A stretch of DNA of 64,000 bases, from positions 27,666,582-27,730,581 of the forward strand of contig OX467092.1 of assembly GCA_950106755.1 (NCBI GenBank), read 5' to 3'. This document shows, one piece after another, positions 16,831 through 62,406 of this stretch (the stretch's first letter is position 1; the number at the start of each line of letters is the position of its first letter). The DNA comes from Climacium dendroides. Its lineage: Eukaryota; Streptophyta; Bryopsida; Hypnales; Climaciaceae. The position numbers and the translations under genes are program-made. The notes below the pieces were generated by a model. The model was not told the DNA's origin and searched no databases. It saw only the letters and a list, made by a program, of their open reading frames with translations.

Positions 16831-16935
16831 TAGGGTTGCTAGCAGGCGAGCTTGTGAACGTGAGCCTGTGAGCCTGTGAGCCTATGAGCAGGAAAATTTT
16901 TTCATTAAAAAAATGTGGAGGACCTATGACCGTGG
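16831..16935 (+). repeat. Left terminal inverted repeat and subterminal motif of element A
   Basis: The end starts TAGGGTTGCTAGCAGGCGAG and contains several GTGAGCC direct repeats. At 16,923-16,935 it carries CCTATGACCGTGG, a motif found in all four ends of the two elements at varying distances from the tip. Clustered GTGAGCC repeats plus the shared motif are plausible transposase-binding sites. Confidence 0.7.
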
Positions 16936-17411
16936 ATGTAAGTGTTTAATTTTTTCTGAAGATGTGAGCTCATTCTTCAAAAATTTAACTTACTTACAAA
17001 CTTAAATGAAATAAAAAATTGCACTAACCAATTGTGTATAATCTATAAAGGCCGTGGAGGACAACAAATGTCTAATGAATGACAAAAGAATCGCATATGT
17101 AGGACGTAATTGCAATTATTCATCCACATAATTAAGGATGGAAAAGAGAGGTCTTCTACAGTATTGTGACTCCTAATAAGTTCTTTTGGTAATTTTAAAG
17201 TAAATAATGTCACAGGGTTCCAGAATCACTGATTTCCACGGTAACCAGCCCAACATTCAAGAGTTAATTTTGATAGAAAACATAAATTGTAAAATTTTGA
17301 AGGAGAATGAATCATACTAAAGATGTAGCCATAAAACACATAATCAAATCAAATCATATTGAAAATAAAAACATAACAGTTTGACTCATGAGATATGTCA
17401 ATCTTATAAAT

Positions 17412-20400
17412 CTAAATTATAGTGGACTCAGTTGCAGACGCCAAGCTACTCTCAAACTCTGAAGTCTCTTTCGCCTCTGATGCCGATGCATCTATGAATT
17501 GCAAAACATTAAGAGCATATGTATCTTTTCTATGTTTTGGTTCTAAGCTACCAAAGTTTGCAAATGCTGATGCTAGTTGCTCAGTATAAATCGGGAGATC
17601 AAAAGACTTTTCTGGACTTAGTACCATTTTGAGTCTCTTCCTCACTGCATCTGTGGACATCAGTTTCTGATGCCTACAAAAAAATAGATACAATATTAGA
17701 GTCATGAAATAGAAGAAGTAAGATGTCAAATAACACTTCAAAAATATGAAAAACTTACTTACTGGGTTTAGTTCGGTGAGGAAATTTTCGAGGAACCACA
17801 GTCATAGCGTCCGGATCTTGTGAAGATGCAACCAACGTTTGCATTTGCGTTTCAGTTATTATCACATCTTCTTGAGTGTTTCTTTTCATGGGTTGAAGGA
17901 CGCCATGAAAAACACTCTTGTCCTCCTCTAAAGCCACTATGTGTTGTCCTGTGCCGCGACATGCTGTAATTGATGCACCTACAATTTACAAAATGCAATT
18001 CATATCAATGAATCACTATATCAATACATATATGAAAATACAATTATTAAAATGAAAACTAACCAGTGGATGCTGTGCAGTCCAAAACCAAGTCGCCTTC
18101 TTCAGTTGTCCCCTCTATAAGGAATTGGAAGAACCTAGCATCCTTTTCGCGAGGCCCTCGCCATGGAATTTTGGTTTGTGGATTGACCAACATGCTCTCT
18201 TCAGTTGTATAGTTAATTAATGTATCATCCTTGCGTAGGTCTACTTTTGCCTTCTACATTGTTTGTGACCGCTTCAAGAGAACTTCGACTTCTCTTTATC
18301 ACCAAGGTCCTTCACCAAGAGAGTTATTCCAAACTTCAAAGTCTATAGTCATAAAAAATTATATATTAGAAAAGAATAGAACCATTTGTGAATGTCAATT
18401 TCCATTAATATCATGAAAATATTTGAAAACACTAACCGTTTCCGAGTCATCCACAGCTGAAGTTAAGTGCATACGATTGATGCCCAACCATTCCTTCTTC
18501 ATCACCAGTGAAGGATAAGACTCGCACAATCCTACAATAATGCCCTTTGAATCGGCACACCATGATTGAAATACTATTATGCAGCCATGGTCTTGTAAGT
18601 GCATATCTACAAAGAAGAAGGCCGATTGAATGGCCTCGTACTCTGGATCTGAATTCCATGAAGGTATTGATTCCTCTGGAGTTCATACATCCGGTACAGG
18701 TAAATTCTCTTGGCAGTCAAAGAAAATGAGGTCCACTAAAGGTGCTTGGCTCATTTTACCTACATACATACGGGGCTTCCCTAGTGCCAACTACAAAAAC
18801 GAATTTATACAAACAATCAATTATTCATACAACTTTGTTTCACAGGTCCAAAAAAAAGGATTCTTAGTTTCAGGCAGAACATCGTGGTTACCTTCTTCAA
18901 AAAGGTCGTCACTTCAATATAGTATGTAGGCACCTCGGACTCCATGTCCTCCATTACGTTGACAATAGAGACGTTTAAGATCAATTCCTCTGAAGTGACG
19001 TCTGCATCATCACCAAGAACTATGACTTGAGTACCTTGTGTGACGATGTCCTCTGTGAAATCTGGAAATATCGCCTTCCTCTTCGAAATCTGGAAATATC
19101 GCCTTCCTCTTCAATCCACTTTGGGATCCACTTTGCATATGTGAGTTCTGATCAACCATTGAAGAGGCCGGTACTTGTTTTTTGCCTTCTTCCTTCTTCT
19201 TGCCTTTGCCTTTGCCCTTGCCCTCTTCTTTCTCCTTCTCCTTCTCTACCAACTTGAGAAGACGCTCCGCTTCTTTTTTCTCCTTGTTCTCACGAATCTC
19301 TTGCTCTTTGTTCTCTTTCTTCTTGTCAGCAACCATTCTCCTTGCAATTGCTTTCTTCTTCTGTTGATCAGTGTAGTTGTTGAATTCGGGAACATCCACA
19401 TCAATGACGCCAAGACCATCTAGTGATTTTCGAAGTTCTACTTCTGATGGATGAGTGAATGTCAACGGACAGTCTAGATACCATGCACTACCACTAAGAT
19501 GAACCGTCGTAAATGTCTTCAGTTGGCTTGATGTGTACATGCACTCTTCAGAACTCCGGTCCAACCATGTGGTTAGAAATAGAGGAAGATCCTCCCTAGG
19601 GATGGCGTTCTTTCCTAAAATCTTGTACTTGAAATACCTACAATAACAACATTTAAAAAATAAGTAACAATCACATAGCCGAATTCCTTGTTACAAATAA
19701 CACACATTCACTGAACAAGTAACTATATATGCAAATCCTTCAGAGAAATGAATGGAATATGACATTTATATTTACATGAACGTACCGGAAAACAACTCTA
19801 CGAACATCGTCATTTGATCCATCAAAATTCGAGAAGGTATCTGACTTCTTGAAAGGGTTCGATCCCTTCAAAGCCGGGCCAAATCCTTGATCCCAAATCT
19901 TCCTTCTCCATCCCTCTATATACTCTGGAAGATACTCCGGTTGAAGCGGGGCTGCCATATTGATTTTGAGGCCATCCTTATTGACTACATTGTCGAAGTA
20001 CTCTTCCGCAGTATCTTCAATCTGCATCATATTCTTGTCAATACATTTTCATTGTTGTTTGGTATAAATGAAAAAACAAAACTTTACAATGTAGCACTTC
20101 AAGATTTTGACATTTCAGACATGAAAACACTTACCCCACTCCACCAAACCCATTTATTGAGGAAGGGCCCTAATTTATCTTCGGAAACTGGCTTTGGAGG
20201 GAAACGTCTAGTATCCCGTGAAGGCAGGGATGAGTTCTACCACTTCAACAACTTTGTCTTCTGTATTGGAGAAGTATTACAAGTAGCTATCATTTGGAGC
20301 TTTTCCAAAGTCATTTCAGGAACCTCATTCGTAGTCCAATGCTTTTCAACCTTCAAAGTCAAATAGAATTTTATCAACATTAAATAAACCATAATAACAA

Positions 20401-21735
20401 AAAATTTGACAACTCATTCTTACCTCAAAATTCTTCATCACCTCTTCCAAAAATCCTGGACCGTGAGTAGGATTTGCCACCGCAAGCAATTTTCCCATTT
20501 TCACGTTCAACTTCGACGCCTTCTCCTTAGCTCCAACCCTCACGGCATTAGCCACCCCTTGATCACTTTTATCCTCAGGTGTTGTCACTTCATTGTACTT
20601 TCGTACTGCGGCATTTGCTCCTTGTGCTATCTTTTGCTATAGAATAACATGAACACAATTTCAATTACACAAAAATTGAACATTCTTCAACCTCTCCTAT
20701 CTAATAATGACATAAAATAAAAGATATGTAAAATTCTTATAGCACTTTGACTCTCACCCGGAAAACAAATGCTGTGAAGACCTCTATTGGCATTGAGTAC
20801 CATGTTTTTCTCACTGATTGAATACCACAACGTTTCCTCTCAGATGGTCTCAACATTTCATTGAACTTCTCCATGGGAAAAGGCCCATACTTCTGAACAT
20901 GATAAAGAGTGTGAACCAAATTGGTCTTTACATGGGAATCCTCCGTCGACCTACAATTTATATTCTTCAATAAGTATATATAATACACATTAAACAAATT
21001 AAACCTCAAAATATTAAAAGCCATATATAATAAACAATAAAGGAACATCATATGATATACTCCTACTTACTTGTTGATGTCATGTATAATCTGCATGACG
21101 AGCTCTATTCTCCTTCTTGTGTCCAAAATGATGCTGTCCACTGAAATGTGCCAAGCTCGATCTGCTACATGCAGCCTCGAGATATGATTCATCCATGCTA
21201 AGTGACGGTGATTTCCGTCACAGACAAAAAACCTGCAGTTCTTTAAATGACTCAACTCTGGCATAGAATCTAAGTAATCATTGAAGATGTCATTTTCTGA
21301 TTTCCACAAAGGACCCCAGGCATCTATTTCATCTCTTGAGAATTCCGAAGACTCCCCCGCCTCATTTGTTGTGGACACATAAAAAACTGCGGCTCCATTC
21401 CTATATCCGTGAATAAACTCTTGTTCAAGTTTTACAAGATCACAAAAGAGGGTGGGTTTGACCATTAGCATGGGTACCAATCTGCACAAAGGTATGCGCA
21501 TTCGTGAGTACTTTTGAGGCCTCATCCTCAAACTCTCAATGGTAGCCACGGAGTCTACCTTCTGCAGCCGTCGAAGTTCATCTTCGAGCAACTCCTTCTT
21601 CTCCTCCTCCTCAACATCATTCACTTCAACATCTCTTTCTTCTCGAGTGCCAATTTCTGGCTGACCTCTTTCACTGGTAGGTGGAGTTGAATGAACTTCC
21701 TTTGGCTGTGACAGATTAATTGGTGACTCCTCCAT
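17412..21735 (-). pseudogene. ParB/Srx-like plus N4/N6 methyltransferase-like fusion gene, element A copy (broken)
   Basis: Ten exons on the minus strand, defined by comparison with element B: about 21071-21735, 20758-20950, 20424-20636, 20135-20350, 19786-20021, 18892-19637, 18437-18790, 18064-~18341, 17759-17978 and 17412-17673. Exon 1 holds CRFFVCDGNHRHLAWMNHI, the signature of ParB/sulfiredoxin-like folds. Exon 6 encodes a lysine/glutamate-rich linker with GLKRKA. Exons 7-9 hold a permuted methyltransferase: VDLIFFDCQENLPVP at motif IV, then KIPWRGPREK, then GDLVLDCTASTG joined to GASITACRGTGQHIVALEEDK at motif I. The gene is dead: TAG at 20237-20239 (exon 4), TGA at 18683-18685 (exon 7), at least three stops in exon 8, and a frame-shifting 28-bp duplication in exon 6. 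The start at 21735 is a guess; an upstream exon is possible. Confidence 0.82.
19057..19112. repeat. 28-bp tandem duplication in exon 6 of the element A ParB-MTase gene
   Basis: The same 28 bases occur twice without a gap (19057-19084 and 19085-19112). As 28 is not a multiple of three, reading shifts and terminates soon after. Removing one copy restores an open exon of 718 nt whose phases fit both neighbours, so the duplication is a recent inactivating event rather than family structure. Confidence 0.85.
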
Positions 21736-21963
21736 CTGCTAGATCATGTACATTTCAGAAGTCAATCGGCAAATACAATGAAGTCCTTATGAAGTTGCAA
21801 GTGCAATTTGCAAACCAAATCTTTACCAATATTTTAAAAAAAGCCTCAATACAAAGGATTGTATGAGTAATACATAATGAAAAAACATATAATATCACCA
21901 ATGACTAAGTAATACATTAGTCATTCATACTAAGCACCAGAATGTTATCTACTCCTTCCAATT

Positions 21964-22330
21964 TCAATCAACTTCTACACTAGCATCCAAGTCAGAACTG
22001 AAGTGGATGAGGACAATTTCGTGCTTGCCCAAACCAGAGCTGCAAGCAGAATCTCTAGTATCCTCTACTAGTGGAGTAAGTGGACTAGAAATGGAGATTG
22101 ATGTTTGACAATTAGAACTACTGTATTTAGTCTCAGAACTCTTAGGAGAGAACACTGGTTGTTTTCGTTTCCTTTTGTTGAGGTCACTGAACCTATTGCA
22201 ACGAGGCTCTTCTAATTCATCAGCTGCTCGATCACAAGCATCAAGAATGTCTCCAAGGCTTACCAAGTCATTGTCTTCATGAGGTAATGACTGGCTGCCG
22301 ATGTTGGCGTTCTTGTCTATAGGAGTCCTA
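21964..22330 (-). other. Possible 5' exon or small hypothetical coding segment upstream of the ParB-MTase gene
   Basis: An open frame runs leftward from just after a stop near 22,330 and encodes GFRTPIDKNANIGSQSLPHE, then SLGDILDACDRAADELEEPRCN and a basic NKRKRKQP stretch that looks like a nuclear-localisation signal. It ends in a stop at 21964. It lies directly upstream of the ParB-MTase exon 1 and on the same strand. Element B has no counterpart: the box array occupies that position. It could be an alternative first exon or an unrelated relic. Confidence 0.3.
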
Positions 22331-23213
22331 AAGCCTTAAGTGCCCGCATCATCTACAATGCAGGTTGCCACATTGGTCGCCAATGGTAAAGGTGCCTGCT
22401 CGTTGAGATTCTCATGTGTATGCATCTGCAGAAGCATTATAATAATGAGGTAGGTCAATGTCAGTGAAAATGACTTAAAATATTCTATAATAAATAGGAA
22501 GAATAAATGAATAACAAGTAGGAAGAAAGAATCAGTATTAAGAAAAGAATGTGTTATTCCAAAATTTATTGACTTTATTTAGTAAAATTAAATTGCAAAA
22601 TTGCTTCCTAGAACTTTCCATATACAATAAATTAATATGAAATTGACAATTCCTAAATGAACTATTTAGATTTGAAATTTTTCTGACAACATAAGCTGAT
22701 CTACAGATGAAAATGGAAATTCCATCATTCCCTAAGCCATTTCATTATTTGCAAGACCAAAAATAGGGATACAACAAGATACCTCCACAAATGGCGTCGG
22801 ATCCGACAACCTTACCCACTGTACACTGCTGTACCTCCATTATTGGTCTTGTTGACCAAATGTGATTGTCTATTTGCATTGACCACCCTAACAACTTAGA
22901 ATTGAAATCCTCATGGGCACAATTAGAATAAGCAGAAATGGCGAATTTTTTTCATTTTTTCATTTTATTATTTTGATTACAATTTTGTTACATTGATCAT
23001 TCTTCAGACATTTGTTAGAATTATTCCTTCCATTTAAAAAATACCTGAACTTGGAATACCAAATATTCATAAATTCTGTAATTATGACCAAAATACCAGA
23101 CAGTCTGAAAAAATGAAGAACAACTGTGGAAGTCGAAGTCTACTAAGTATTTTGGCTGGTTGTAAACAGTCCTAGACTAACCATGAGACTTTTGACAACA
23201 AGACGAGAAATAG

Positions 23214-23283
23214 GGGTAGCGTGAGCTACCCCAGGAAACCCTGTTGGACCCGACAGGGTTCATTGGGGTAGCTCACGCTACCC
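23214..23283. repeat. Nested perfect inverted repeat in element A spacer
   Basis: The arms are GGGTAGCGTGAGCTACCCC (23,214-23,232) and its exact reverse complement (23,265-23,283). The 32-nt loop holds a second palindrome, AACCCTGT ... ACAGGGTT. The DNA or its transcript could form a strong cruciform or hairpin. Confidence 0.85.
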
Positions 23284-23567
23284 TTGTTTCTTATCTTGCT
23301 ACTACTTCCTTATGCCGACTTCACACGTCCTCTTCAGTGACGGCTTGAAGTTCCTTCTGTGCAAGCCTAACCAAGTGCATGAAGAGTTCACATTTTCTAT
23401 TTTACTCTTGCCTCCTTGAATCCACACGGACTTGTGCGTAGTAACTTCAGCATGCCATTACCGGAATTCCGAATTGGTTCTTCATCTACCTGAGTGTCTG
23501 CAAAAATCGACTGTATCATGCACAAGGATGACTTCCTGCCGTCTATAGTCTAGCAGGACTGAAAAGT

Positions 23568-23639
23568 GGGGTACCACAAGGTACCCCGAGGAGCACTGTC
23601 GGATGCGACAGGGTTCCCCAAGGTACCTTGCGGTACCCC
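23568..23639. repeat. Second nested inverted repeat in element A spacer
   Basis: The arms GGGGTACCACAAGGTACC (23,568-23,585) and its reverse complement at 23,622-23,639 differ at one position. Its loop holds CTGTCGGATGCGACAG. Arm-loop-arm length and the CTGT..ACAGGGTT loop motif match the palindrome 350 bp to the left, although the arm sequences differ. Confidence 0.85.
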
Positions 23640-25060
23640 AATTTTTAGTCATGCTCCTGATTCAAACTCCAGTTTCCTCACAATTGAATGGGTTCGTCAT
23701 TGCCAAATTTTTAGAGGCTTGCAGTGGGGTTCACTAATCTAGGAGACTTGGGGAATGAAGTAATTGGCAGACCACCGTAAAAAATTGGTGAGGCTGCAGG
23801 TAGCCTGAAACAAAGTCTAGCACATTCGGAAACAATTTGAGTGCATGTCAAGCTCCGAACCTCAGCGTGCTTTTCTTTCCGACTAATCCAACACCGGAAG
23901 AATCTCTAATCCCTGTGACACCTGTACGCGGAAGTGTCTTCATACGACAACTTACAGAATTCTAAATTACTTCACTCAGACCCATTGACTTCCCACAAGC
24001 TACTTCTGATCGAAATCTAGAAACTCCTCCCAACTGCCATGTTACAGGGAACTTGTGGTATGAATCTGGCCCTCTTGAAAGATGCCTAGGAAGCCAAATC
24101 GCTCAAGGAAGTCACCTATCTGTTTACAATGGAATACCGAACACGCTTACTTCTGGAGTTTTCAGAATCCTAGTTCATCTGGCAACGCAGCTACTGTTTG
24201 AGAAAGTTCTAGAAGCGATATTCTCGCCATAAGGGCATTTAAATATTGAACTTTCTAAACTCGTCTAGTTTACTAATTTCCTGCAAAATTCTTCTTCTAT
24301 CGTGCAACCGCTGCCTCCAAGAAGATCAGACATAAGACCGCATTCCTAAACTTGGGTATACTGATCTAGCACCGGAATATCACTGTTTCTGGAAGTCTGG
24401 AACTGATCATCGGGAAAATAGACCTGTCGGGTTCGACTGGAGTCCATCGAAGATTGAACCACAGTCTGTATCGATCACAGGCCTAGTCGATCCACGTGAT
24501 CGAAAAGACTGATGCCACTAGTACCCCTGTTCACAATTGCCGCATTCGTCAACCTTTTGGCACAGTTGCAAGAATGAGGAAGCGTGATTGGATCAGGACC
24601 TGATTTTAAATTTGGGATTGAAGTCACTAACCTGCATGTTCTGGTGCTCGTTTAAATTTGGTGCCTCGATGTCTTCCACTTCTAATCGCTAGCGTCTTCT
24701 GGTGTTCTACATGTCTAGAAGATGGAATCGAGGTTGTTTTTCTCTGCTTCTGTCAATGCCAAGACAATGAAACGATAATTTCAGCTGAACAAAAACTTTA
24801 TGAATATCTCTGCCCACGCTAGGACTTACCGCAGACTACAAACCACCGAAGGTTATCCTATCCTGCACAATCAGATGTGCATGCTACTTCAAGGAGCTTC
24901 ATCACATCTTTAACCCCTCAATGATAATCATGCGGTTAGAAGTTAAAAGAAATGACGAAAAATGAGTTGGGCAGTTCAATTCTCTGCTGCGCCCTCAGCA
25001 TACGCAACTCCCCAACCTTTGAACTTACCAGGGTCGATACGAGTGACGTGCAGTTGTATT

Positions 25061-25252
25061 CCTCAGCTTCAATGCAGGCCACATCGACAAAGGGAGGCAC
25101 AGAACAATGGACGATGCGCTGACGCCTCAACTTCAGTGCAGGCCACATCGACAAAGGGAGGCACAAAACAATGGACGATGTGCTGACGCCTCAGCTTCAA
25201 TGCAGGCCACATCGACAAAGAGAGGCAAAGAACAATGGACGATGCGCTGACG
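25061..25252. repeat. Three 64-bp tandem repeats in element A spacer
   Basis: Units start at 25,061, 25,125 and 25,189, each opening CCTCA(G/A)CTTCA and containing GGCCACATCGACAAAG and ACAATGGACGATG. The copies differ at only a few sites. Overlapping ORFs on both strands simply reflect the repeat. Confidence 0.9.
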
Positions 25253-26924
25253 ACACCAAACTTATACCCTGAGCGACAGGATGGTAGGCCAACGAAGGAC
25301 TTCGGGTACCTTCCAGAAATGGACCTCCGTAAACGCATTTGGAATTTCAAAAATTCCGTTCAAATCTGCTCTTGCATTTTTGTATGTCCACCAGAATCCC
25401 AGTTTAGGATGCTGTCACAAACTCACATGGAGTACAAGCGGCGGAATGGCACAGAGGAATTTCCGTGGACTACGAATTTAGCAGGTGGACAGCATCAGAT
25501 GACACCTTTTTTTTTTAACGCCTTTGTTTGCAAGGTATACCCAATATTAAATTTTGAAACTGCAGATATTAAGGAAAAGGTTTTCCCTCCTGCAAATGAG
25601 CTCGGCTACCCTTCAAGGAACTTCTAGTATGACGGAGAAGTAGTAACTACAAAAGCAGCTCCATCATACAATATATGGATCTTGCATTGGCGGACCCATG
25701 ACCACTGATTTAAATCCTATTGTATGTCACTTAATTTGCTTCCATTTCGCAAGTACATATGCATGAAAAATTATATTTTTTTTTTCCAGAGATGACATTA
25801 TATATCTTCTCTACTTCACAGAAATTCTAGATTTTTTTGTTTAAATTGATTTTTTTGAGAATTTTTGAAGAACAAAGTGAAGAAAAATCACATGAAGTAG
25901 AAAATTAGTTCAGAAAATCTGAAAATTTCACCATGTGTGTATACTATAGTGACAAATATCATGGTGTGAACCCAATTTCTGTGTCACTCTAAAAATAGAA
26001 TTTCATAGAAATTGAAATAACATCCACAATTCAAATTGCAATAAAATATTCAATATTAGGAATTTTTCAAAAAATCAAATTGGAGTAGAAAGTAGAGTAC
26101 ATGAACTTCATTATGTTAGTTGGGCTCAAACTCAAGAAATATAATTTTTGTGGAGAAATTTCAGATTTAAAACAATGAGGAAGAACTTTCCAAAATGCAC
26201 TAAAATAACATATTTTGTGATCCGTTTCTTTTACTAACTTCTCATGTAAATGAAGACAAAGACTAACAAGACTACAAAATCAATTGCATGCTCTTCATAA
26301 CCCAACATTAAAGATCAAGAGGAAAAATATGGATGAAAAAATGCTTCTGGTCACTGTACAACACACCGTACTATCATCCAAATGCCACAGAATGGCGTTG
26401 GCGGCGTTTAGGGATTAACCATTTTCTTATTATGAAATGACATTCATAGAATCTTCATATCCTCCACAAAAATCCTGTCAGCTACTCTATTTGTTTCTGT
26501 AGTTAATTCTTCAAGAAGTGCAGCTAATCATTTGCAAAATTTGTTTCTACTTTCTATCTCCGAAATTGTATAAAGAAAACAGTGAGGTTTGAGTCAACTA
26601 AAATAGTACATACTTTTCTCTACACAAACAAAATTGAAAGCTCACTTCAACATATTTGATCTTGAATTCAAAGAGTGGCAATTGACACTGTGGTTTTCTC
26701 TTTCACACAAAAGTTGTGTGAGAATCATTTCCCTTGAACATATGGAATTTGTGCCTACAATTGTTGATTGTAGTCCACATATGGAACAACTATAGTCTTA
26801 CAAAGCACATGTACAAATTTGGATTAGACCTTGAACCCACTGTGAAGTGTGAATTTTGAAGACGTATCATGAGTGGGGTAAAAATAAGAATGAGAACTCT
26901 GGAAAATTTACGTGCTCTATACCT

Positions 26925-27206
26925 CAATGGAACTAATGTTCTTTTATTTCATATAGTTGGTGCACAAATATATCTATTGTAGGAAGCCTAAGTCTACTAG
27001 GCTTAGTTAGTAATAATTCAATGGAACTCATGTTCTTTTATTTCATATAGTTGGTGCACAAATATATCTATTGTAGGAAGCCTAAGTCTACTAGGCTTAG
27101 TTAGTAATAATTCAATGGAACTCATGTTCTTTTATTTCATATAGTTGGTGCACCAATATATCTATTGTAGGAAGCCTAAGTCTACTAGGCTTAGTTGGTA
27201 ATAATT
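26925..27206. repeat. Three 94-bp tandem repeats upstream of the element A transposase
   Basis: Units begin at 26,925, 27,019 and 27,113 and are nearly identical; shorter diverged versions continue to about 27,380. Each contains AAGCCTA-agtctac-TAGGCTT, a perfect 7-bp inverted repeat, and TTGGTGCACAAAT. The array ends about 270 bp before the transposase ATG, which fits an upstream regulatory or binding array. Confidence 0.88.
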
Positions 27207-27650
27207 ATATTTTATGTAATTGGTGCGCAAGTACTTCTATACATAGTGTAATTGTGCAATGTTTTTCTATTTTATATAAGTGGTGCACAAATATTTCTAT
27301 TGTAGAAAGCCTAAGTCTAGTAGGCTTAGTTGCTAATTATTCTATTTTATGTAATTGGTGCGCAAATATTTCTATACATAGTGTGAGTGTGGCAGGCATA
27401 ACCGCCAACATCAATAAATGTTTTACTGCGGGGCACTGCTATTAGGATGTATGAGAAGTTTCAAGGGAATTTTTAGTGTCCTGTACATTTGAAGTTTAAC
27501 TATCTTATATTATCCTATTGTATTTTCAGTAGGTCTATGGTAAAATCAGTATGCATGCAAATGCACTATAAGATAGTGAGTGTTCATAGTTAGAACACTA
27601 AGGAGTACTCTCTTTGATTCTGACAATTGTGTTTAAGCAAAGATTGTATC

Positions 27651-30600: not shown

Positions 30601-31684
30601 ACATTTAGAAGGAGAAGAGATCTTTGGAAGCACAAAGAGGAAATTGGACGTTCCAATTGGTGATTCAGGAGGCTCACATCGACTAGATAAAGTAAATTTT
30701 TCTCAACCTCGTATCTGAACGAGGTCCACTATTCCTCCTGCAAGCTCTTCAGAGGGCAAAGAGAAAGAGTCAGAGTCTAATAGGTATGACTATGTGACAA
30801 TTGCATTTGAAAGCGACTGTGACACATCAAAGTGGCACATTGCAAGGATCAACCACAAATCTAATGCTAAATGTCAAGCTCAACAACGAGGGTCGAATAT
30901 CAAGTGCACTGCTCGAATTGCAAGAGGACGGAAGGGAACACCAGCTCTAACTTATCGTGGTAGAAAAGAAGATTATGGGACTAAACGAGAAGTATTTGCA
31001 AACTTCTGGTTCTGTGCTGATGATGTTGAACGATGTGTGAAGGGTTCAAAGCGTAAGTGGGTAATAGATTGGCCGGATGTGCCAGAGATTTGGCCTATTT
31101 TGACAGGGACACACCTTAATCGAGATGAGACTTTGCTGTTGCAACATGCTGAATTTCGGTTGCAAGAACAACCTACATTGTCACCACGTCACCTATTTAG
31201 TATGTCAAAGATATTTGAAAGTGTTGTGTATGATGAGGTCCCGCCAACAAATGCAGATGTGTATCCTACAGTGAGGAACAATCGAACCATACGGCGAATA
31301 GCAAATGCACCAACTGCAGAACAACGCAATAAGTGGGAGAGTGTAGGCAATATTAGAGGTCAAAATTTGGGAGTGACCTTACTTCCTTTGCCGGGACTAG
31401 GTGCAATCATATCTCTGGAGATTGGGATAGATCAGAACAAAAATGTGTATCGAGTAATAGTGGGTATGTTCCCGTCCTGCACATGCTCAGACTTTGTGAA
31501 CATGTCTACTCCAGCTATTGGAGGACGTCAACAGTATGTGAATTGCAAGCACCTATACTACTTGTATTGATATTTTTGCAAGATGGACGTGCATGAGGAT
31601 AAATTCATTCATGCACCAAGTTATAGTTTCAATGAGTTGAAACTTCTTTTACTTCGAGCAGGAATAATCACTGTGCCACAATAG
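27651..31684 (+). pseudogene. Mutator-like (SWIM-type) transposase, element A copy (broken)
   Basis: Start taken as ATG 27651. Exon 1 runs to 29810, intron 29811-30294, exon 2 to the stop at 31682-31684. The N-terminal third is unrecognised. A Cys/His module follows: GHLVCMNLECDY, then CKLCRK, then HFGHHAYHV, resembling the WRKY-GCM1/FLYWCH-type fingers of MULE transposases. The DDE-type core has MMFDHVKR (D near residue 540) and FKGFMADRVMANWNAI (D near 606), then CLLHW. The C-terminus has the SWIM signature, SCTCSDF ... YVNCKHLYY. Compared with element B the frame is interrupted by TGA at 29697-29699, a +1 insertion near 30,390, TGA at 30716-30718 and TGA at 31568-31570. It is therefore a pseudogene, though nearly full length. 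No third acidic catalytic residue could be assigned. Confidence 0.87.
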
Positions 31685-32227: not shown

Positions 32228-32296
32228 TATTTATTAGCGAGAGGTCTATGAGACTGTAATGTGATGGCCCGGGTTCGAATCCCGTGAGGCCCTAAA
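32228..32296 (+). repeat. tRNA-derived SINE head or decayed tRNA-like sequence
   Basis: TTAGCGAGAGGTC resembles a polymerase III A box, and GGGTTCGAATCCC is a perfect B box with T-arm pairing, followed by GAGGCCC. The 5' acceptor strand that would pair with GAGGCCC is missing, so it is not an intact tRNA gene. A tRNA-derived SINE inserted near the transposase-side end of element A is the best reading. Confidence 0.45.
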
Positions 32297-51358: not shown

Positions 51359-51368
51359 TCTTACATGC
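51359..51368. repeat. Left target-site duplication of element B
   Basis: TCTTACATGC occurs here and immediately after the other end of the element at 62,407-62,416. Confidence 0.88.
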
Positions 51369-51557
51369 CAACGACGCTAGTTTGTGAGCCTAAAAGCGTG
51401 AGCTCAAGAGCTGTGAGCATACATTTTGTGAGCCTAGAGCGTTGATTTAAAAAAATTAAAATTTGTTTAGGCCAATAGAGAAAAAAGGGGAGACATTTCA
51501 AAATTTTAATATTAATAGTAAAATTTCAGCCCTATGACTGTGGATCTATAACCGTGG
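51369..51557 (+). repeat. Left terminal inverted repeat and subterminal motifs of element B
   Basis: The end starts CAACGACGCTAGTTTGTGAG and holds several GTGAGC repeats. Two versions of the shared subterminal motif follow: CCTATGACTGTGG (51,531-51,543) and TCTATAACCGTGG (51,545-51,557). Confidence 0.75.
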
Positions 51558-51600
51558 GATTGTTGTAGCATGCACACCATAATTTTTTTTTTTTTTTGGG

Positions 51601-51780
51601 GTGTGAAAGTCCCGACTTTGAAGCGCCTAAAAGGGGTTTCTCGGTACCGAGAGAGGTTTTCAAGGGTGAAAAAGTCGCGGAAAAAAAAAAAAAAAAAAAT
51701 TGGTTGAAAGTCCTAACCATGAAACCTCTCAAAGGCTCTCTTTGTATCGAGAGAGGTTTAGGGTGGTGACAAAGTTGCAA
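51601..51780. repeat. Subterminal ~100-bp repeat pair carrying TCTCG palindromes, element B
   Basis: Two units about 100 bp apart begin GAAAGTCC and end GAGAGAGGTTT. The first contains TCTCGGTACCGAGA (51,639-51,652), a perfect 14-bp palindrome; the second has the degenerate TCTTTGTATCGAGA (51,739-51,752). These share the arms of the box array in the spacer of element B, placing related sites near one end as well as in the centre. Confidence 0.7.
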
Positions 51781-52466
51781 AATTTTGGGTGATTTTTTGG
51801 GACCTACTTACAATATGACAAACAACTCTTTGGACTTTTGTCATGGCCTAATTTTTGCCCACCAGTGCTTAAGTGGTCAACTATAGGTGGCTCAACTTTA
51901 AGAGTTTTTGTCTTTCATGAATTAATGATATTTGAAGGTAAAAAATCATTAAGTTATTGATTATTTCAAGTTTGGCTTGTTGAAGCAAACTGTCCCAATT
52001 TTTAAATATTGAAGTTCATTAACTTAAGTTTAATAAAGCTCAACACTCAATTGTCGATGGCCTCAATTTGTTTGGATGGGAGGAGCGGAAAAAAAAATTA
52101 AAAAAAAAATTAAAATGGGGGTACACTAGGATTAGGTGGATAGGAATATTTTGTGGGGCTTTAATGTAAAATCAGTCCCACTTGTGTACTTCCTAAGTCC
52201 TAACCAAACACAGATTGAGGGAGAAGCATTGCAATGTACTTCCACACGTTTCATACATTACACATAGTATATAAAGCATTTACATTGCCTATAGGGAGAA
52301 GAATATGCAACAATCAAAGTTACACACTAATCACTCTGCAAAATTATAGATAAAGCATACATAGTTCTGTACATGTAGTATTTTCACTCAAAGTTCCAAA
52401 TACATATGAATCTAACTCTACATGCTGGGCTTGTATAGGACGGTTCTACATATTCTAACTACAGTT

Positions 52467-54914
52467 TTAAGAATTCATTTTGATCATCCCTGCATTTTCA
52501 AGTAGTTTCATGACTTCATCCATGCTGAGGCTTGGAGCATGGATGAAGGGGTCCTTCTTCGAATCTACTTTGCAAAGGTAACGGAAAATGTAATATAGAT
52601 GTTTGCGGTTGACATATTTCCCTCGCTTACCAATGGAGGCAGAGATCATAGTGCTAAAGGACAAACAAGTGCAAGATGGAAAATTAGAAAGAGTGACCCG
52701 GTTCACCATATGGTGAGGTTCTACGCCTGACTGTAGAGTAATGATAGCTCCAAGTCCTGGGTAAGGCAAAATGTTCACTCCGAGAATGATTCCAGATACA
52801 TTTTGGGCACTCTCCCATTGATTTCGGTGCTCATCAGTAGGTGCCTTCTCATTCCTACGAATGTTTTTTCCATTCCTAACACATGGTGGCTTGTTAGCAT
52901 GAGGTGGTCTTGCGTACGTCCATTCTACAACCTCGAATAGTTTTGAAGACGTGAAGAGCCGTCGTGGAGACAAAGGTAGTTGCTCCTGGAGGTTGAAACT
53001 TGCTTCTTCAAACAATGTGATTTCATCAGAAGTGAGGGCAGTATCAAGCATCATGGCCACACGCGAGGGATTTCAGGTCGGCTAAGAACATGAGACCTTC
53101 TGGGACCCATTACACAACGCTTGATGTCGTCTGGACAAAACCAAAATTCATCAGTCTCCACTCTAGACCCTTTGAACTCACGCTTCTGCCCCTTATATAA
53201 TGGAGCAGTTGTGGCTGTAGCACCCCTCACAATGATCATCTTGCACTTAACCTCTATTTCCGATTGAATGGCATGGCACTTTCTCTTAGACTTCACAGAA
53301 AGGCGGGCTATGTGCCACTGAAATGGATCACAATCTGTCTCCAACACATGTTTGACATGAGGAACTGGTGGTGTATCATCCACTGTATTCCTAACATGGC
53401 TTGGAGCTGACCGAATTTGAATGCGTGGGTGGAAAAAATTCACCTTATCTAGGCGATGAGAATCTCCTTCGGAGCCAATAGGAACATCAAGGGTCCTCTT
53501 AATGGACCCAAACACTTCTTCTCCTTCCAAGTGGGGGATGCGTGTACAAATGTCTTCAGCATCAGGCATACTGCACAAAGCATCAGTAATTCGTTTCCCG
53601 TCCATTGATGCTACTGCCTTCTTCAACTTTAGGTCCTGACGGGAAGGTCCATGTCCAGATGGCCGTAATTGGTCATCTGCATGAAGGCACGGACCCAATC
53701 ATCACATGTCGCAATGTATAAGTCCGTTCCGCGTTTACCAGATGCTTGTAGCCACTTGTTGTGAATCGTCTCAGAGAGGTTACAAGACGGAATGTTAGCC
53801 AATTCTTCCACCGATAGATCCTGTACATTATTTTAGCACTCACATTAGCAATAATCCAAAAGGCAATGTGAAAACTGCATATAAAGAACAAATGAATCGA
53901 AAGGTAGAAGAATGTGACACTTACAGTTTCCATGAAGCCCCCCCATTGGCGGTATCTGAAGTGCCAGAAGGCTAACCACAATTCAAGCTCCTTCAGAGAT
54001 TCCTCTAATGCTGCACCAGAGGAGTACCACCATGCCTTGATTTGGAGGTACCTACTCTCCGCTTCCTCCAAGTTCTTAGCATCTTTGTAGTCTCTGCACA
54101 GCTTCATGTGTTGGCATTGAAGTTCGCGCTTAATGAGTTTTTCAGTGTGTTGCTTCATTGAGGTAGCCCAATGAAAAAGACAAGTGCGTTCTTTGTCAAT
54201 CATCTTGATAGATGGATCTCCAGATCCATAAACAATTCTAACAGCATTCCAATTGGCTTGTGTCCTGTCTGCCATAAAGCCTTTGAAGTTAGGATTTGCC
54301 AAGTCATTCTTCTCCATTACTTTGTTGAGACACCTCCACATAATGACTTGTCCTTCGGTATCTTCTGATTGCATGTTACAAATTGCAATTGTCATTACTT
54401 TGCAATAAATTGAATCATATACGTGGCAAGCAATTGTGGTCCAACCCTTGACGCGTTTCACATGATCAAACATAAGCCAACAATTTGCTAGATCACCTCC
54501 GGGTTGCATCCTCCTTACAAGGTCAACCCCGCTCCCAGGGCCGTCCACGAGCATCTTGAAGACATACACCTTATTCTGTCCCTGTCCCGGGAACACACTA
54601 TCATGAATAAACTCAATCTTTGCTTGTTTCTTCATTGCAAGTAGACGATCAATCTCCCCTCCTCCTCCTCCTCCAGCGTTACGAAAAGAAGCAATGATGT
54701 TCCTCACATTTGGCAAACTAAGGACTTGAAATTTATCCATGACATCATCAAGAGCCTTGCCATGCAGCATCTCCTTGGGTCCGTCACCAGAGTGAACTAA
54801 GAATGTATCAAGGAATTCCTTGCTAGCAGCCAAAGCAATGGCTGATGCTTTGGCAGTAGGGGTTTTTGAAACTTCTTCTGCAATGAGACCTGAGATAGTA
54901 TCAACTGCATTTTC
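52467..54914 (-). pseudogene. Mutator-like (SWIM-type) transposase, element B copy (5'-truncated, frameshifted)
   Basis: Homology to the element A transposase starts near 54,914 at GLIAEEVSKTP, just after an in-frame TGA (54,915-54,917). The N-terminal 400 or so residues, including the Cys/His module, are absent. Exon 1 (to 53,925) holds MFDHVKRVKGW and FKGFMADRTQANWNAV with CLFHW. The intron is 53,821-53,924 (104 bp, GT..AG) at the same site as in A. Exon 2 (from 53,820) holds TRIPHLEGEEVFGS and the SWIM finger SCTCLSF ... YVNRKHLYY, where Arg replaces the Cys seen in A. A deletion with frameshift near 53,685 and a 1-nt shift near 53,060 break exon 2. It is a transposase relic, still colinear with A elsewhere. 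Confidence 0.85.
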
Positions 54915-55250
54915 TCATCTTTCTAGAGTTTCCAATACTTTGCTCTTGCCATTAGGTATCCCAAATTTGTGAACATTTGACGGAAACTGCGACAATGGAG
55001 ACAAGGCGGAGTCGAGACCTCGCACGGTGGGAGCAAGAGGCTGCGATAGTTTCAGCATCGGATTGTGATACTCGTGAGGTACAATCTTGAATCATGGCCT
55101 TTGAATCGCATCCCACATGATATTCGGTACCCTCAATAGATTTCCGAGAACCCTCCCTTGTCGCTTATGTCCCTTATCTGGCTTAGTCGTTGCTGATTGA
55201 ATTTAGAAATGGGAGAAGATCTGGATCGAGGCGTGGTCTCAGTTTTGAGT

Positions 55251-56507
55251 TCTCGCCACCGAGAGGGAGTCATCGCGCGGATTCTCTCGGTTATCATATT
55301 TTGAATTTTGTAGTAGGTTTTGATCTCAATCTCGTGTCCGTCGCTCGACAGTCTCGCCAACGAGACATTGAATATCAATTCAAGATGTTGGAGTAAAGTC
55401 CGATCGCTTACCGCATTTTTCTGATTCTCTCGTCACCGAGACGGAGGAATTGTGGAAAGTGTTCTGTAAAATATTGTCGTTTAGATCTTTCCAAATCGAC
55501 AGTGCGCGTCAGCATCGGATTCTCACATTTCAGTGGCTAGAGCAGCAACACGAAGCCGGGCTGCATCTGCTTGAGTGTTGCAAGGAACTGCGCTGGCCAA
55601 CAGTTGTCTCACCACCGAGAAACTCCAGGCGGGCTTCGTGGGCCGAAGAATTTTTTTCTTTAGATTCATGTTTTTCAGATTTTTTAGGTTTCTGTCCACA
55701 CAGAGGAACATGAGGATTAGTCTCTCGCCACCGAGATTCAAATTTGGGGATCAGAGACTGCTGCGATCTTCCCAACTGATCTGCTTTGAGTTTATCATGT
55801 GGGGACATGGGATCCTTGTCTCGCCACTGAGATAGATATTCGGAAATCATAGACCGCTTTGACTCCCCGACTGAAATGCATTATTCGGAGCTTGTGGGGA
55901 CTTAGGATCCTGATCTCGCCACCGAGAGTAATTTCTGGAAATCATCCTTTCGCAAATTTTTTAGTCAGTCCAATGTGATCCTCTACATAAGCATGCGGGA
56001 TCTAAAGGCTGTGGGGTCTCGAGATTTTATCTCGCCACCGAGAGCCCTGTGAAGGTTGTCCTGTTTGTTGGACTGCTGGACTGCTGCGAGGAACTCGGGC
56101 CATGTTTGTTGGACTGCTGCAAGAAACTCAGCCTCTAACAAGAGTCTCGTCACCGAGATATAGCATGCGGGATTCAAGTCCTGCAAACTTTGTTTTTATT
56201 AGGGTTTTTTTTCCGCAAAATGATTTGTATATATTCTAATAAGTGGGCTTGAAGTAAGGGTCTCGCTACTGAGATAGAAATTCGGGGAGAAACTGCATGC
56301 TCAAATTCTAGTAGGACAAATTAGATATTCTTGAGTACTTTGCATTCTTTGAAGCTAGTGGGGACTTGGGATCTTGCTCTCGCCATCGAGAGACATTTTT
56401 GGAAATCATCCGCTCGCCTATGTTCTAGTTGGGCCATTGTGATTCTTCAAGAAAGCATTCAGGATCTACACGCTGTGGGGTCTCGGAGTTTTCTCTCGCC
56501 ACCGAGA
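55251..56507. promoter_or_regulatory. Array of twelve 14-bp palindromic boxes (TCTCG-N4-CGAGA) between the divergent genes of element B
   Basis: Boxes start at 55251, 55352, 55428, 55607, 55723, 55819, 55914, 56030, 56145, 56261, 56378 and 56494. The consensus is TCTCGCCACCGAGA; seven positions of the arms and CCAC spacer vary only by single changes (for example TCTCGTCACCGAGA, TCTCGCCATCGAGA). From 55,607 on, spacing is 95-117 bp and five of the last six intervals are 115-117 bp. Intervening sequence also repeats loosely (GTGGGGACTTAGGATCCT and CTGTGGGGTCTCGAG before boxes). The array fills the spacer and ends about 145 bp before exon 1 of the ParB-like gene. It looks like a tandem binding platform; the bound protein is unknown. 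Confidence 0.85.
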
Positions 56508-56651
56508 GCCGATTGGTGGATTCTTTTGCTTGCAAAAATTCCAGTTGGTCCAAATACGAAGGAGCTAAGCCTTCACAGGGATTAATTTTCTGAATCATGA
56601 CCATTCCAATGAATATATGAGGTCCTAATAATGTTGCTTATATTTGCGCAG

Positions 56652-59600
56652 GTGGATGCCGCTGATGATGATGTCTTGGTCGAAAATCAATTCCAAGAAA
56701 AAATAGATCCTTCATTGGAAGAGGATCTTGCAAGCATCTCGATGGAAGAACCACGATCGTCTCACGTGGTACAACAGCCTGCATCAATCTCGGTGGAGGA
56801 GCCACAAAAAGATGTCAATGTTGGAGGTGGTTCTTCTGCAATCCAATTGCTTGAGGGAGAAGATGACATTCGTAAGTCTCAGGAGCTTGACTTCGTGGCC
56901 ACAATATCGGGATTGCGTTTTGTCCCAGTCCATCTCTCACGAATGAAAATTCCACTTTGTCGTTTGGTTCCAATGCCAATGGTTAGACCAACTCTTAATT
57001 GTGATCTAACTAAGCTAGAGCAAGAGTTTGTGCACGGCTACGAAGAAGGAGCTCGAGTCTTTTATGTCTCTGTGGCAAATGAGCAGGGCCAAGGAGGGAC
57101 ATTCTCAGATTCAGAGAAAGCTGAATGGGGCTTGCATTAGAACTCGGTGAATGATGAGTTCAATGAGAAACTTTGGGGCGTGGAGGAGCTCAAGCATCTC
57201 GAGGATGCAAAGTTTTATGTCTGTGACGGAAATCATCGTTGAATCGCATGGATGAGGCACATTAGACGTCTCCATAGTGATGACTTGGCCTGGCACATAT
57301 TGGTTGACTCAATAATTTTAGACACAAAAGGGCGTGTAGGAGTGGCGATGCAGGTCATGCACGACATCAACAAGTAAGATTTTATTCATGTCCTTTTTGC
57401 ATTTTTTGTAGATTGCAACGCTCTTTTGATATCACAATTGCATAACTTGTGGATGTCTTACACTCGATTCATGGATGTTTTCAGGCACACTGAAAACTCT
57501 CATGTGAAGACTAATCTAGTACACACCCTATATCGCGTTCGCAAGTACGGGTCGATGCCAATTGAGAAATTCAAAGAGCTTCTAAGTGACGCCGATGTCA
57601 AAGCTTGTCAACAAAATGTGAGGAAGACATGGTACTCCATGCCATTGGACGTATTTACATCATTTATCTTTCAGGTACTGTGTTCCAAAACAAGGGATTC
57701 TCTTTTGATCATAGTGGGATTCCTTTGTTAGTATTTTGATGTGAAATTGTTGGTGCATGCAGCAAGAAATTGCAGTAGCCGGGTGAAAGTACACTAGACC
57801 CCATACACTTTTGTCAAAATTTTAGTACTTTAAAAGTACAAATTTACTAAAGAAAGTGAAATAGAAGGTGGAAAAACAAAAAATTTCAAATTCCATTACT
57901 TAGCCATTCTAGAACTAGCCAATAGAATCTAAAATCTTAGAGTTGATTTTGAAATTGCTCACTTTTCACCAACTTATCCATTCCCAACTAAAATAATACT
58001 ATTTTTTTAGATCTTTGCTACAAGAATGATGTGATTGTAAATTAAACAATAAATCCTAATAGAAGATCTATTGATGTCTATTCTGGAGAAAGGAAATCAA
58101 AATTGAAGTTTCCTAAGACCAAAAATTTTGTACATTTTCACATGATTGTAGTACAAAATTGACTGTGACTTCTTATAAATAATTCACAAAAGTACAAATT
58201 TAATACACTCAAAGAAGTTTTTCAACAAATCTTATAATGCACATGCAAACTAGACATATCTAGCATCTAGAAACATAAAACAAAAGTTGTAAAAACGACC
58301 TTTAAGTATGAATAATACCTTGTAGAAAACCACGTTCTTTGAGAAAATTGAATTGTGACATGAAAAGTACAAGGGTCTAGTGTACATTTACCCAGCCTCG
58401 GACGCAGCTGTCCGAAAGTACCACGAGGACACCCCTCTTGAGGAAGTTATTGATGCGGGGGTTGCAGCTGCAATGAGGACTTCTACAAAGGATGCCACAC
58501 ATCTACTATATAAGAAGCTATCAAAAATAGTTTCTGTTGCAAATCCAGTACTAGGAGATGATTGGCTTCAAGAGGTACACATAGACATGTTTTACTCCCT
58601 CAGCACATACCTACTTAGAATTATTGAGGTTGACCATTCCTATAAGTATTCGGAAGTAGTGAGTTGGCGACAATATTACAGTCTCTGGACCGAGACAAGC
58701 ACTTAGCTATCCAAATTGAGAGTTCATGCTTCCTAAATCTTGTAGTCTATCTTCCGTGGATTCTTGAATTGGATCCATTAGTATGTAACTAGAGTGTCTT
58801 ACCCTAGTGAATTGGGTCATTAGGTTGCTTGTCTAACGACATTCATTTTCATTTTTTCGATATCTATTCAGTTTTCTTAGACTCTTCTTGCTGGGCATCG
58901 TCCGTACTTCCTAATTGAGCCCGTAGATTTTACTAATTTGCCTTCATCCATGCTGTGACTTCTAATGTATTTTAGAATTTAACTGCCATAGTCTCTTACT
59001 CCTACCTTTGCGTTGTTATGATCCTTGTACTGTGTGCCATGTTTTCAATCCATCCTTTCATAATCCCTGCATGAACATGTACTTCCTCACTAGCACTGTG
59101 TTAAGTTTCTCAATATCGGTTAAATTTTCTCCAGATCTCATTCTTGCGATTGTCAATGTATGTTATCTAAATCGGGAGCTAGCTTTTTTCACTGATTGAC
59201 GTTTCTATTTGATCATTGACAGATTGAACGGCATTGGAGCATGTACGCAGTCCAGGAGTTGACTCTCGACAAGCTTCAGCTCATTGCCACAGCAAATGCA
59301 GCCTCAAGTCACAAGGTGAAGTGGCTCAAATGGCTCAATTCATCTGGACCTACACGTGAGGCACGACGATTTCCACCAAGACCAGCCAATGATGACAAGA
59401 TCAACTCCTTCCTTGCCAAGGTGTGTTGGTATGCCGCGGTATGAATCTGTCACGATTTATCATGCAAATTGAGCAAATGATTTGAGTTATTGTTGTTGAC
59501 AGTAATTGATGTCATTATTTTGGCCTGGGTCAGATTGAGGATGCTGCTGTCGAGATGTACGAGGGCATCATCCGCTCCGATAATATTCATGTGGATATGG

Positions 59601-62111
59601 CTGTTGTTGGCGAGCCTGAATCTCTTGTGGATTACATAGAGGGATGGCGGATGAAGGTGTGGGACCACGCCTACCCAGGAACTTTTAAGGGTGCAGATGC
59701 CTTCAAGAAGTCAGAGTCCTTTAAAGACCAGAAGTTCTCTAACCTTGTGGTTAAGAGAGTAATCTATAGGTGAGGGACCTCATTTCCAATATCTTCATTC
59801 TTAGCTTTTCAAGGACATGTTTGTGGATTACTATTGTCTACATGGTTAACTAATATCTTTGAGTCCCGGCCTTGTGCTATAGGTACTTCAAATTTGAATT
59901 GTTTTTCAAGAAAGCAATTGCGAAAGCTGACTTACTGCCTTTCTTCAACACCTGGCTTGACCGGACCTCCTCCGACTACATGTTCTCACCGTCTCAAGTG
60001 AAAAATTGGACGAGTGCTCATTTGCAATCAGGGGCGTGGTACCTTGAATGTAGTCAGGGGTTCATCCCACCTGAAGAGACGGCGCTCTTTCAGTCCATCA
60101 AAGACAGTGGCGTGGTGGATCCACAATTTGATGAATTTGTGGGGCTTGACGCTGATGCTCGAGAGGCTGCTTTGAGGAAGAGAGAGGCATCTGACAAGAA
60201 GAAGGAAGAAAAATGGGAGATAGCAAAGAAGAAGACTGAGGAGAATGATGCTAAGAGAAAAGCACGTGATATCGAGAAAGGTAAGGTCGAGGCAAAGGGT
60301 AAGTTGAGCGGAAGGAAGAGAAAAGCAGAGTCGCAAGGACCAAAGCAAGCTACTAGTGATGGCGCGATGAAGCCCACCTCCTCAGCCTTCTCACTCACGC
60401 AGGAGAAGCTTCTCCATGGGCTTCCTTCCAAGGCCTACACTTTGGAGGCACATGATAACGTGGATGAGATTATCTTGAACCTTGGAGTCTCTAGCTTGCT
60501 GGGATCTGCTGAGGATGGTGTACCTGCATCGTTTGATGCCATCATAGAGTTGTTTAATAAGGTACTATATCTCTTCATTCTTACATGGTTTCATTAGATG
60601 AAGGCAATGACATTGAGGTTATTGTGATGGCTGAGTCCATGATGTAGCGTTCCTATAGGTAATTTATGGCTAATTTTTTACCTGGATTGTATGTGATCAG
60701 CATGCAGCAGACAAAGAGCGCTTCTTCAATGGTGTGGTTACTGGGCAGGCGGCCGTTGACCTCATAGTTGTAGATCTCCCCGAGGGATTACCGGTCCCTA
60801 CAGTTTCCAATCCACCAACATCGGTTCCCAAATGGAACGAGTTCTCGGCGGAAGGTCTTACTGATGTCTTCGATTTTGCTGACAACTATTTGCACGACGG
60901 TGGTGCTCTCCTTGTGATGTACCCATTTAGTCGTGACATCAAGTCTCACTTTCTTGAAAATTTTAAGTCGTTTGAATTTACTTCAAAGAAGGATTGGTGG
61001 GGCATGAATAGGCTCCACCTAGCGTCTCCATCTGACCCATCAGCCACGGTATGCTCTAAATTCTTTGAGTTTGTATTAGGTTCCTAAATTTGAATTTCAT
61101 CTTTAAGGCCATTCAATAATTCTAATTGTTTTGCAGACGATGCGCTTTGCGATTTCACTTTACGTGAGAGGTTCCCAGGGCCGATTCAAGAGCCGGTTTT
61201 CATTCCAAGATGTACCTGAGCATGAAGCAGTAGGCATCAACGTGGGTCGAGACGACATCTTGCAGAATTTCTGTGGGAAGGATGATGTGGCTTTAAACAG
61301 GAAGATTCCTTGGCGGGGTCCTCGGGAGAAGGCCCGGGCGTTTATGCAAATGCTTGTGGAAGCAACGACCTTGCCTGGTGATATCGTCATGGACTGCACC
61401 GCATCTACAGGTTTGTATTTCCAGTTAGTTTTTGTGAGTCCCGAATTTTAACCACATTATGATTTGATGTATTCATTCCAGTTCATGTAGATGGTTCAAT
61501 GACTTCCTTCTTGTATGCAGGTTCATGTGTATATGCTTGCCGTGCTACTGGTCGTCATATTGTGGCCTTGGAAGCAGAAAAGTCCATATATGATGCACTG
61601 CTAGCTCCATTAACTCGCCGTGCATCGAATACTGTGACTCAACCGAAGCACACTCCTGCTCCTCCAATTGATTTGGAAGAGGAAGAAGTGCCCGTCCATC
61701 ATGTCGTGAGGACTTCAAAATTTAGTAAGTAAGTTTATCCCTAAATTTTCAAAGTTATCCATCTAGGTTTCATCATGTACTTTGATCTCATGTGTGGGTT
61801 TTTTTTTGTATAGGCAAGCAAAGAAAATGAGAACGGCACAACATCGACTGTCCTTTGGGAAGGCTCCATTCTTCTTTAGCCCGCCTAAGCCATTTCATTT
61901 ACCAGTGTATGCCGAGGCATTAGCTTCACAGTTTGCTACTTTTGGCAGTAGACAGTGTTCAAGGATTTGTAAGGTAGATCCTCGAGTTCTCATGTTCATA
62001 GATGATTCGGCTAAAGAGTCAATTAGTGAGACATCAAATAGCCATGACACTTCTTCATGTAGATCTCCTGGTAGTTCTTCATCCAGATCTCCTAGTACTT
62101 CTCATCACTGA
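56652..62111 (+). pseudogene. ParB/Srx-like plus N4/N6 methyltransferase-like fusion gene, element B copy (broken)
   Basis: Ten exons: 56652-57373, 57485-57674, 57763-58574 (with a MITE inside), 59223-59438, 59534-59769, 59883-60561, 60701-61048, 61137-61410, 61521-61728 and 61814-62111. Without the MITE all phases join, giving about 1,121 residues. Exon 1 has the ParB/Srx-like block AKFYVCDGNHR. Exon 6 is a long charged coiled linker with SGRKRKAESQ, a likely nuclear signal. Exon 7 has motif IV VDLIVVDLPEGLPVP; exon 8 KIPWRGPREK and GDIVMDCTASTG; exon 9 CRATGRHIVALEAEK. The order IV-X-I is that of permuted (beta-type) N4-cytosine/N6-adenine methyltransferases, but DPPY and FxGSG are replaced. 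TAG at 57138-57140 and TGA at 57240-57242 interrupt exon 1. The start may be ATG 56631 (reading through) or an upstream exon spliced at 56651/56652. Confidence 0.85.
57781..58393. mobile_element. 613-bp MITE inserted in exon 3 of the element B ParB-MTase gene
   Basis: The inverted ends match at 19 of 21 positions (left GGGTGAAAGTACACTAGA.., right complement GGGTAAATGTACACTAGA..). The exon base string AGCC is duplicated on each side (57,777-57,780 and 58,394-58,397). Removing the insert restores EIAVASDAAVRKY, colinear with ANAAVRKY in element A. There is no coding capacity. A 4-bp duplication does not by itself identify the superfamily. Confidence 0.85.
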
Positions 62112-62293
62112 TCTCTATTGTGAATTCTATCACTTCTATATCTTACTAAGGGTTATACTTTTCACATTCTTCAAGTCCACTATATGTTTTTATTATTCCT
62201 GAACCCTAATCCCTTGTTATATTTTTGTTATCCTAAAGCCACTATTTCTCTACTAATTTGTATTCTCACACACAAAGCCCTACAAAATGTTAA

Positions 62294-62406
62294 CCACGGT
62301 TATAGGTCCACACCCCATAAATTATAAATTTTTTGGAAAAGGTTGAAGGCTCAAAAGCTCACAACTCTCGGGCTCACGCTCCAAGGCTCACAAACTAGCA
62401 CCCCCG
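62294..62406 (-). repeat. Right terminal inverted repeat and subterminal motif of element B
   Basis: Read inward on the minus strand the end is CGGGGGTGCTAGTTTGTGAG, with further GTGAGC repeats. The shared motif appears as CCACGGTTATAGG on the plus strand at 62,294-62,306. Confidence 0.78.

Follow-up and report, generated by a model that had tools for sequence, protein, structure and literature searches.

Two insertions in the window, the stretch of 64,000 nucleotides of Climacium dendroides DNA analysed here, belong to a group of transposons in which a ParB- and methyltransferase-like (ParB-MTase) gene lies divergently beside a transposase gene and moves with it as one unit. The reading put forward here, which stands at about even chances as a whole, is that these insertions (E1 and E2) represent degenerate copies from a large clan with 10-bp target duplications, a Mutator-like transposase and two co-moving divergent genes, and that the second protein, encoded by the ParB-MTase gene, may be a DNA-binding anti-silencing or regulatory factor.

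Borders, ends and genes of the two insertions

The borders originally predicted for E1 and E2 proved exact, each element lying between perfect 10-bp duplications (Table 1). The duplicated sequences, GGTACATACC for E1 and TCTTACATGC for E2, have no further occurrence on the + strand of the window. The ends of the two elements match as predicted, with CTAG located 8 nt inside the border at all four ends. GYRAGC is found at position 16 from the border and recurs further inward, and the terminal inverted repeats, which contain these GYRAGC repeats, are short (~20 bp or more). A perfect 10-bp duplication flanks seven of the 13 copies whose ends were examined (E1, E2, ten copies fetched through a left-end match and the copy S2), and a 9-bp duplication flanks one (c09). 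No duplication was found in the other five of these 13 (the outer c04 copy, c05, c06, c08 and c10). A 14th copy, nested in c04, is bordered by a 10-bp duplication with one mismatch.

Table 1. Positions of E1, E2 and their features in the window
Feature	Position	Strand	Basis
E1, element with both genes, 15,931 bp	16831..32761		borders and 10-bp duplication
E1 left target duplication, GGTACATACC	16821..16830		sequence read
E1 right target duplication, GGTACATACC	32762..32771		sequence read
E1 ParB-MTase-like gene, spliced, in-frame stop after PDV	17412..21738	-	exon matches
E1 ParB exon with CDGNHR	21070..21735	-	exon matches
E1 exon with motif IV DCQE, interrupted by a stop	18422..18790	-	exon matches
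E1 exon with motif I DCTASTG	18062..18232	-	exon matches
E1 transposase gene, 691-aa frame followed by a downstream exon, in-frame stops	27624..31570	+	frame and matches
E1 SWIM-like end CTC...CKH	31478..31567	+	read by eye
E2, element with both genes, 11,038 bp	51369..62406		borders and 10-bp duplication
E2 left target duplication, TCTTACATGC	51359..51368		sequence read
E2 right target duplication, TCTTACATGC	62407..62416		sequence read
E2 transposase gene, without its ~400 N-terminal residues, containing stops	52467..54914	-	exon matches
E2 ParB-MTase-like gene, spliced, in-frame stops, broken by MITE-like insert	56652..62111	+	exon matches
E2 exon with motif IV DLPE	60695..61051	+	exon matches
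E2 exon with motif I DCTASTG	61137..61412	+	exon matches
E2, 12 palindromes TCTCGNNNNCGAGA (nine exact and three that differ at one base) between both genes, candidate binding sites	55251..56507		motif search

The ParB-MTase and transposase genes are divergent in both elements, and the predicted gene pair with outward polarity is thus present in each. At the DNA level, E1 and E2 have five blocks in common (64–71% identity), and their ParB exons are 52–60% identical. In-frame stops interrupt both genes in both copies, and E1 and E2 are therefore decayed. For the E2 transposase, the colinearity that had been claimed for the encoded proteins is confined to the C-terminal part, because the E2 gene lacks the first ~400 residues, for which seven transposase queries and fragments gave no match in E2.

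Three smaller features were observed in the two copies. The MITE-like insert in the E2 ParB-MTase gene (window ~57,779–58,396) is ~600 bp long and has the inverted ends GTACACTAGACCC...GGGTCTAGTGTAC. The right part of E1 (window ~32,270–32,284) contains a tRNA T-loop-like sequence, GGTTCGAATCC, perhaps from a tRNA-derived insert. A frame ending in SSDxDASVE is conserved upstream of the ParB exon in E1 (window 21,964–22,335) and S2 (L029), with a similar one in family F5, and may correspond to a 5' exon or to a small gene of its own.

Genome-wide pairing and movement of the two genes

The 412.6-Mb assembly that contains the window (contig C41) was searched with the E1 transposase frame and the E1 ParB exon, and all counts cover scored matches. 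The transposase frame yielded at least 64 matches with 77–100% identity (scored out of 1,366 first-look candidates), of which eight are free of inner stops, counting the window's own. The ParB exon yielded at least 150 matches with 55–100% identity (scored out of 1,054 first-look candidates). Pairing was assessed for all 64 transposase matches and for the 79 ParB matches at ~77% identity or more, leaving out the 71 of 150 below that level. Among the matches listed, a divergent ParB exon lies within 20 kb of 53 of the 64 transposase matches, against a chance expectation of 0.12 pairs, and 55 of the 79 ParB exons have a divergent transposase within the same distance. The pairs within 20 kb comprise 55 divergent, one convergent and four same-strand arrangements among the matches listed, in which 24 of 79 ParB and 11 of 64 transposase matches are partnerless. 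The DNA fetched for c02, c07 and c09 does contain the partner, in a fragmented or truncated state.

The ends of the element lead to the same gene pair. Forty matches to the E1 left end were listed, and the element side carries both genes in 22, the ParB exon in 30 and the transposase in 27. Ten further copies fetched by the left end include seven with both genes, one interrupted by another element, one without the ParB exon and one with an MTase fragment only.

Movement of the pair was captured in S2 (L029 and L030), which carries both genes, measures 15,416 bp and resides inside a sister copy, with ATGTGAATTG on both sides. Its transposase frame of 740 aa contains no stops, and its ParB-MTase exons were also read without stops. 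When the S2 flanks are joined with one duplication, they align without gaps over 1,414 bp (98.1% identity) to intron 1 and the exons next to it in the same gene of S2; the target into which S2 inserted was therefore a sister copy. The positions of a left end (C39:23,622,695), a ParB exon (23,642,352) and a transposase (23,648,251) around S2 fit a sister copy that also carries both genes. The pairing of 53 of 64 transposase matches, together with the filled S2 site compared with the uninterrupted sister sequence, thus indicates that the pair moves as one unit. These observations support the predicted status of the ParB-MTase gene as an integral part of the transposon in the families tested (ParB exons at ~77% identity or more). 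A stand-alone host gene with a linkage limited to two loci is not supported in these families.

The divergent arrangement recurs in all five families that were read on both sides (E1, S2, E2, family 3 and F5). Family 3 is represented by an 11-kb element with both genes that is nested in an E1-type copy between the flanks CATACGAAGC and CATACAAAGC. F5 (L031/L032), which likewise has the divergent pair, shows 51% identity for the ParB exon and 68% for the transposase frame. For seven more loci (L033–L039), the stretch fetched and read covered the second gene and excluded the transposase side. Intron 1 of the second gene has its GT donor in the same place at all 11 loci and a YAG acceptor at 10 of 11. 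Two E1-type copies in opposite orientation were also observed on contig C34 (L017–L020, 1.725–1.770 Mb); their transposases are near-identical (dN 0.002, dS 0), and one copy has on its left the flank that its counterpart has on the right (CGACTCGGAC), a configuration that an inversion or inverted duplication would leave.

The second gene is under purifying selection, with ParB-exon dN/dS values of 0.12–0.20 between E1-like copies (E1, c01 and c05) and c07, c09 and S2; the transposase frame gave 0.21–0.23 against S2. The youngest E1-type copies have higher ratios (0.37–0.62 for ParB and 0.59–0.98 for the transposase), which is the pattern expected of copies that decay once inserted. These ratios, the decay of many copies and the frequent capture of host genes described for MULEs (PMC6446971) would also suit a captured host gene fragment that travels as a passenger in the style of a Pack-MULE, but the same orientation in five of five families, the saturated dS between families and the constraint make a passenger very improbable.

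Transposase with Mutator-like features

The original prediction assigned the elements to the Mutator-like group, and the assignment holds for individual features and fails at the level of profiles. The 10-bp duplications (9 bp in one case) fall within the 8–11 bp of the Mutator superfamily. Of the rows in the transposase alignment, 28 of 30 have a candidate D, 20 of 21 a second D, and 17 of 18 each the C and the H of a CxxH motif; W and E are present in all rows that cover their positions (six of six and seven of seven, respectively). A SWIM-like end, CTC...CKH, was recognized by eye, with no Pfam match, in E1 and F5, and its second Cys is lost in E2 and family 3. The two window exons with this SWIM-like end do not match any Pfam model, and none of 48 relatives matches a MULE Pfam model. 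The predicted structure of the transposase has a mean pLDDT of 43, and its DDE part is unusable. MULE terminal inverted repeats are often hundreds of bp long, and forms without them are also included (PMC6446971); those of the E1/E2 clan are shorter than the length often given there.

A superfamily other than Mutator, for example a hAT-related or undescribed one, would account for the absence of a Pfam match in all 48 relatives and for the poor structure model, and CxxH is common to hAT as well (PMC5225508). Such an origin is nevertheless unlikely in view of the 10-bp duplications and the SWIM-like end, which fit Mutator. By its features, the transposase is thus probably Mutator-like, an assignment that is moderately supported.

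Predicted ParB-like fold and altered methyltransferase motifs of the second protein

The ParB-like domain of the original prediction is retained as a predicted fold: structure matches of the model point to a ParB/sulfiredoxin-like fold with weak E-values and a uniform hit list, and no HMM match was obtained in Pfam, PHROGs or NCBIfam. DGNHR is conserved across the 12 loci read; in the copy that S2 interrupts, one fragment has NGNHR instead. The methyltransferase part of the prediction stands for the fold, and activity is doubtful with an altered motif IV. The N6_N4_Mtase model (PF01555) matches the Ceratodon purpureus relative P0047 with 30.4 bits (cut-off 26.7) and E2 with 24.2 bits, below the cut-off. 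Profile matches of the MTase domain in the PDB include CcrM and a DpnA-named adenine MTase.

The canonical motif IV of beta-class methyltransferases is (D/N/S)PP(Y/F/W), as in the DPPY of CcrM. In the second protein, motif IV reads D-x-P/Q-E at 12 of 12 loci, with the first Asp kept and the aromatic residue replaced by Glu, and ordinary methylation therefore appears doubtful. Motif I (read at nine of the 12 loci) is DCTASTG-like, compared with DPFFGVG in CcrM. Inactivity does not follow from the altered motif IV: the Ceratodon relative has DTPF. This relative (P0047, M758_1G295400), an annotated 1147-aa protein that is colinear with the transposon gene, is the single protein match to the second gene among 7,989 candidates scored. 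A four-row alignment search gave no relatives at E ≤ 1, which means little because even P0047 was missed, and viral contigs, when scanned, yielded no relatives.

A functional DNA methylase whose motif IV is non-canonical, depositing 6mA or 4mC on the element in the way suggested for algal ParB-MTase transposon proteins (PMC12477816), would be compatible with the PF01555 matches on either side of the cut-off and with the invariant first Asp. The Glu at all 12 loci and the divergent motif I weigh against this activity, which we consider possible but on the unlikely side.

Candidate binding sites and proposed function

The region between the two E2 genes that adjoins the deleted transposase start contains an array of palindromes (Table 1). 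Their cores are conserved and their flanks have diverged. In the whole window, TCTCGNNNNCGAGA has 15 matches compared with 0.53 expected, a count sought post hoc after the array had been noticed. Most spacings in this array (window 55,251–56,507) measure ~116 or 95 bp, values close to an integral number of helical turns. Palindromes exceed shuffled sequences in only four of seven representatives; E1, c01 and c07 contain other palindromes, which in E1 are partly a tandem duplication. The palindromes of S2, family 3 and F5 are not above shuffles, which rules out a universal feature. Palindromes as binding sites are thus a candidate lead rather than a result.

In the proposed reading, the second protein would bind the element's own DNA, with the terminal GYRAGC arrays and, for some families, the intergenic palindromes as candidate sites. 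Once bound, it would protect the element from silencing or regulate transposition. It would more likely be a DNA- and nucleotide-binding factor, like VANC in VANDAL elements, than an ordinary DNA methylase, because motif IV is D-x-P/Q-E at all 12 loci read and motif I is non-canonical. We infer this functional step of binding and anti-silencing by analogy.

The fixed pairing with the transposase and the terminal GYRAGC arrays would also suit a transposition co-factor without an epigenetic role, which would bind the ends, choose targets or take part in re-integration along the lines proposed for mudrB (PMC6446971). A methyltransferase-like domain is unnecessary for such a role, and this alternative is improbable. 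A more specific form of the anti-silencing proposal is offered tentatively and is itself improbable: in the land-plant clan, a ParB-MTase-derived protein that has lost ordinary methylation might be a nucleotide-switched ParB-like loader that assembles on the intergenic palindromes and spreads along the element against silencing, so that a parS-ParB system would have turned into an anti-silencing device.

The conserved change in a catalytic motif predicts that the action of the second protein may not involve DNA methylation. Because mosses are amenable to culture and transformation, transposon counter-defence could be studied directly in them.

Comparison with known systems

The original prediction knew of no described eukaryotic transposon with such a pairing, a statement that is overturned by an Ectocarpus case in print and by green and red algal transposons with ParB-MTase accessory proteins cited in the same paper (PMC12477816). 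The large DNA transposon Sola1-1_Ec32 (Sola-1) of Ectocarpus encodes a ParB-like and N4/N6 methyltransferase protein opposite its transposase, and the kind of element is therefore already known; the algal relatives are described as predicted methylases (PMC12477816). Searches of open-licence PMC literature found no ParB-MTase in Mutator-like elements or land plants, no high copy number there and no fixed motif IV change. Mutator-like elements, a moss host, a high copy number and an altered motif IV are thus new within the literature searched.

Sola1-1_Ec32 and the E1/E2 clan both have the two domains in one gene opposite the transposase. They differ in that the former has a Sola-1 transposase in a brown alga (PMC12477816), whereas the latter has Mutator-like features and many copies in a moss. 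The altered motif IV is described for the moss clan. The fixation of a ParB-MTase gene in a successful Mutator-like moss clan suggests an accessory gene that serves unrelated transposases and reaches land plants. VANC is an accessory DNA-binding protein of the Mutator-like VANDAL elements (PMC5735166). VANDAL elements and the E1/E2 clan are alike in combining a Mutator-like element, an accessory protein and short motif arrays in noncoding parts, with DNA binding predicted for the clan; the E2 array is palindromic, a property not ascribed to the VANC motifs in the available part of that paper (PMC5735166). Fungal DNA transposons that carry TET/JBP (PMC12730594) and retrotransposons that carry DNMT (PMC5890265) likewise place a DNA-modification gene on a transposon, but their enzymes and transposon types differ. 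Bacterial ParB/Noc proteins and beta-class methylases such as CcrM resemble the second protein in predicted fold; the catalytic motifs are altered in the clan, and the bacterial proteins are not transposon genes.
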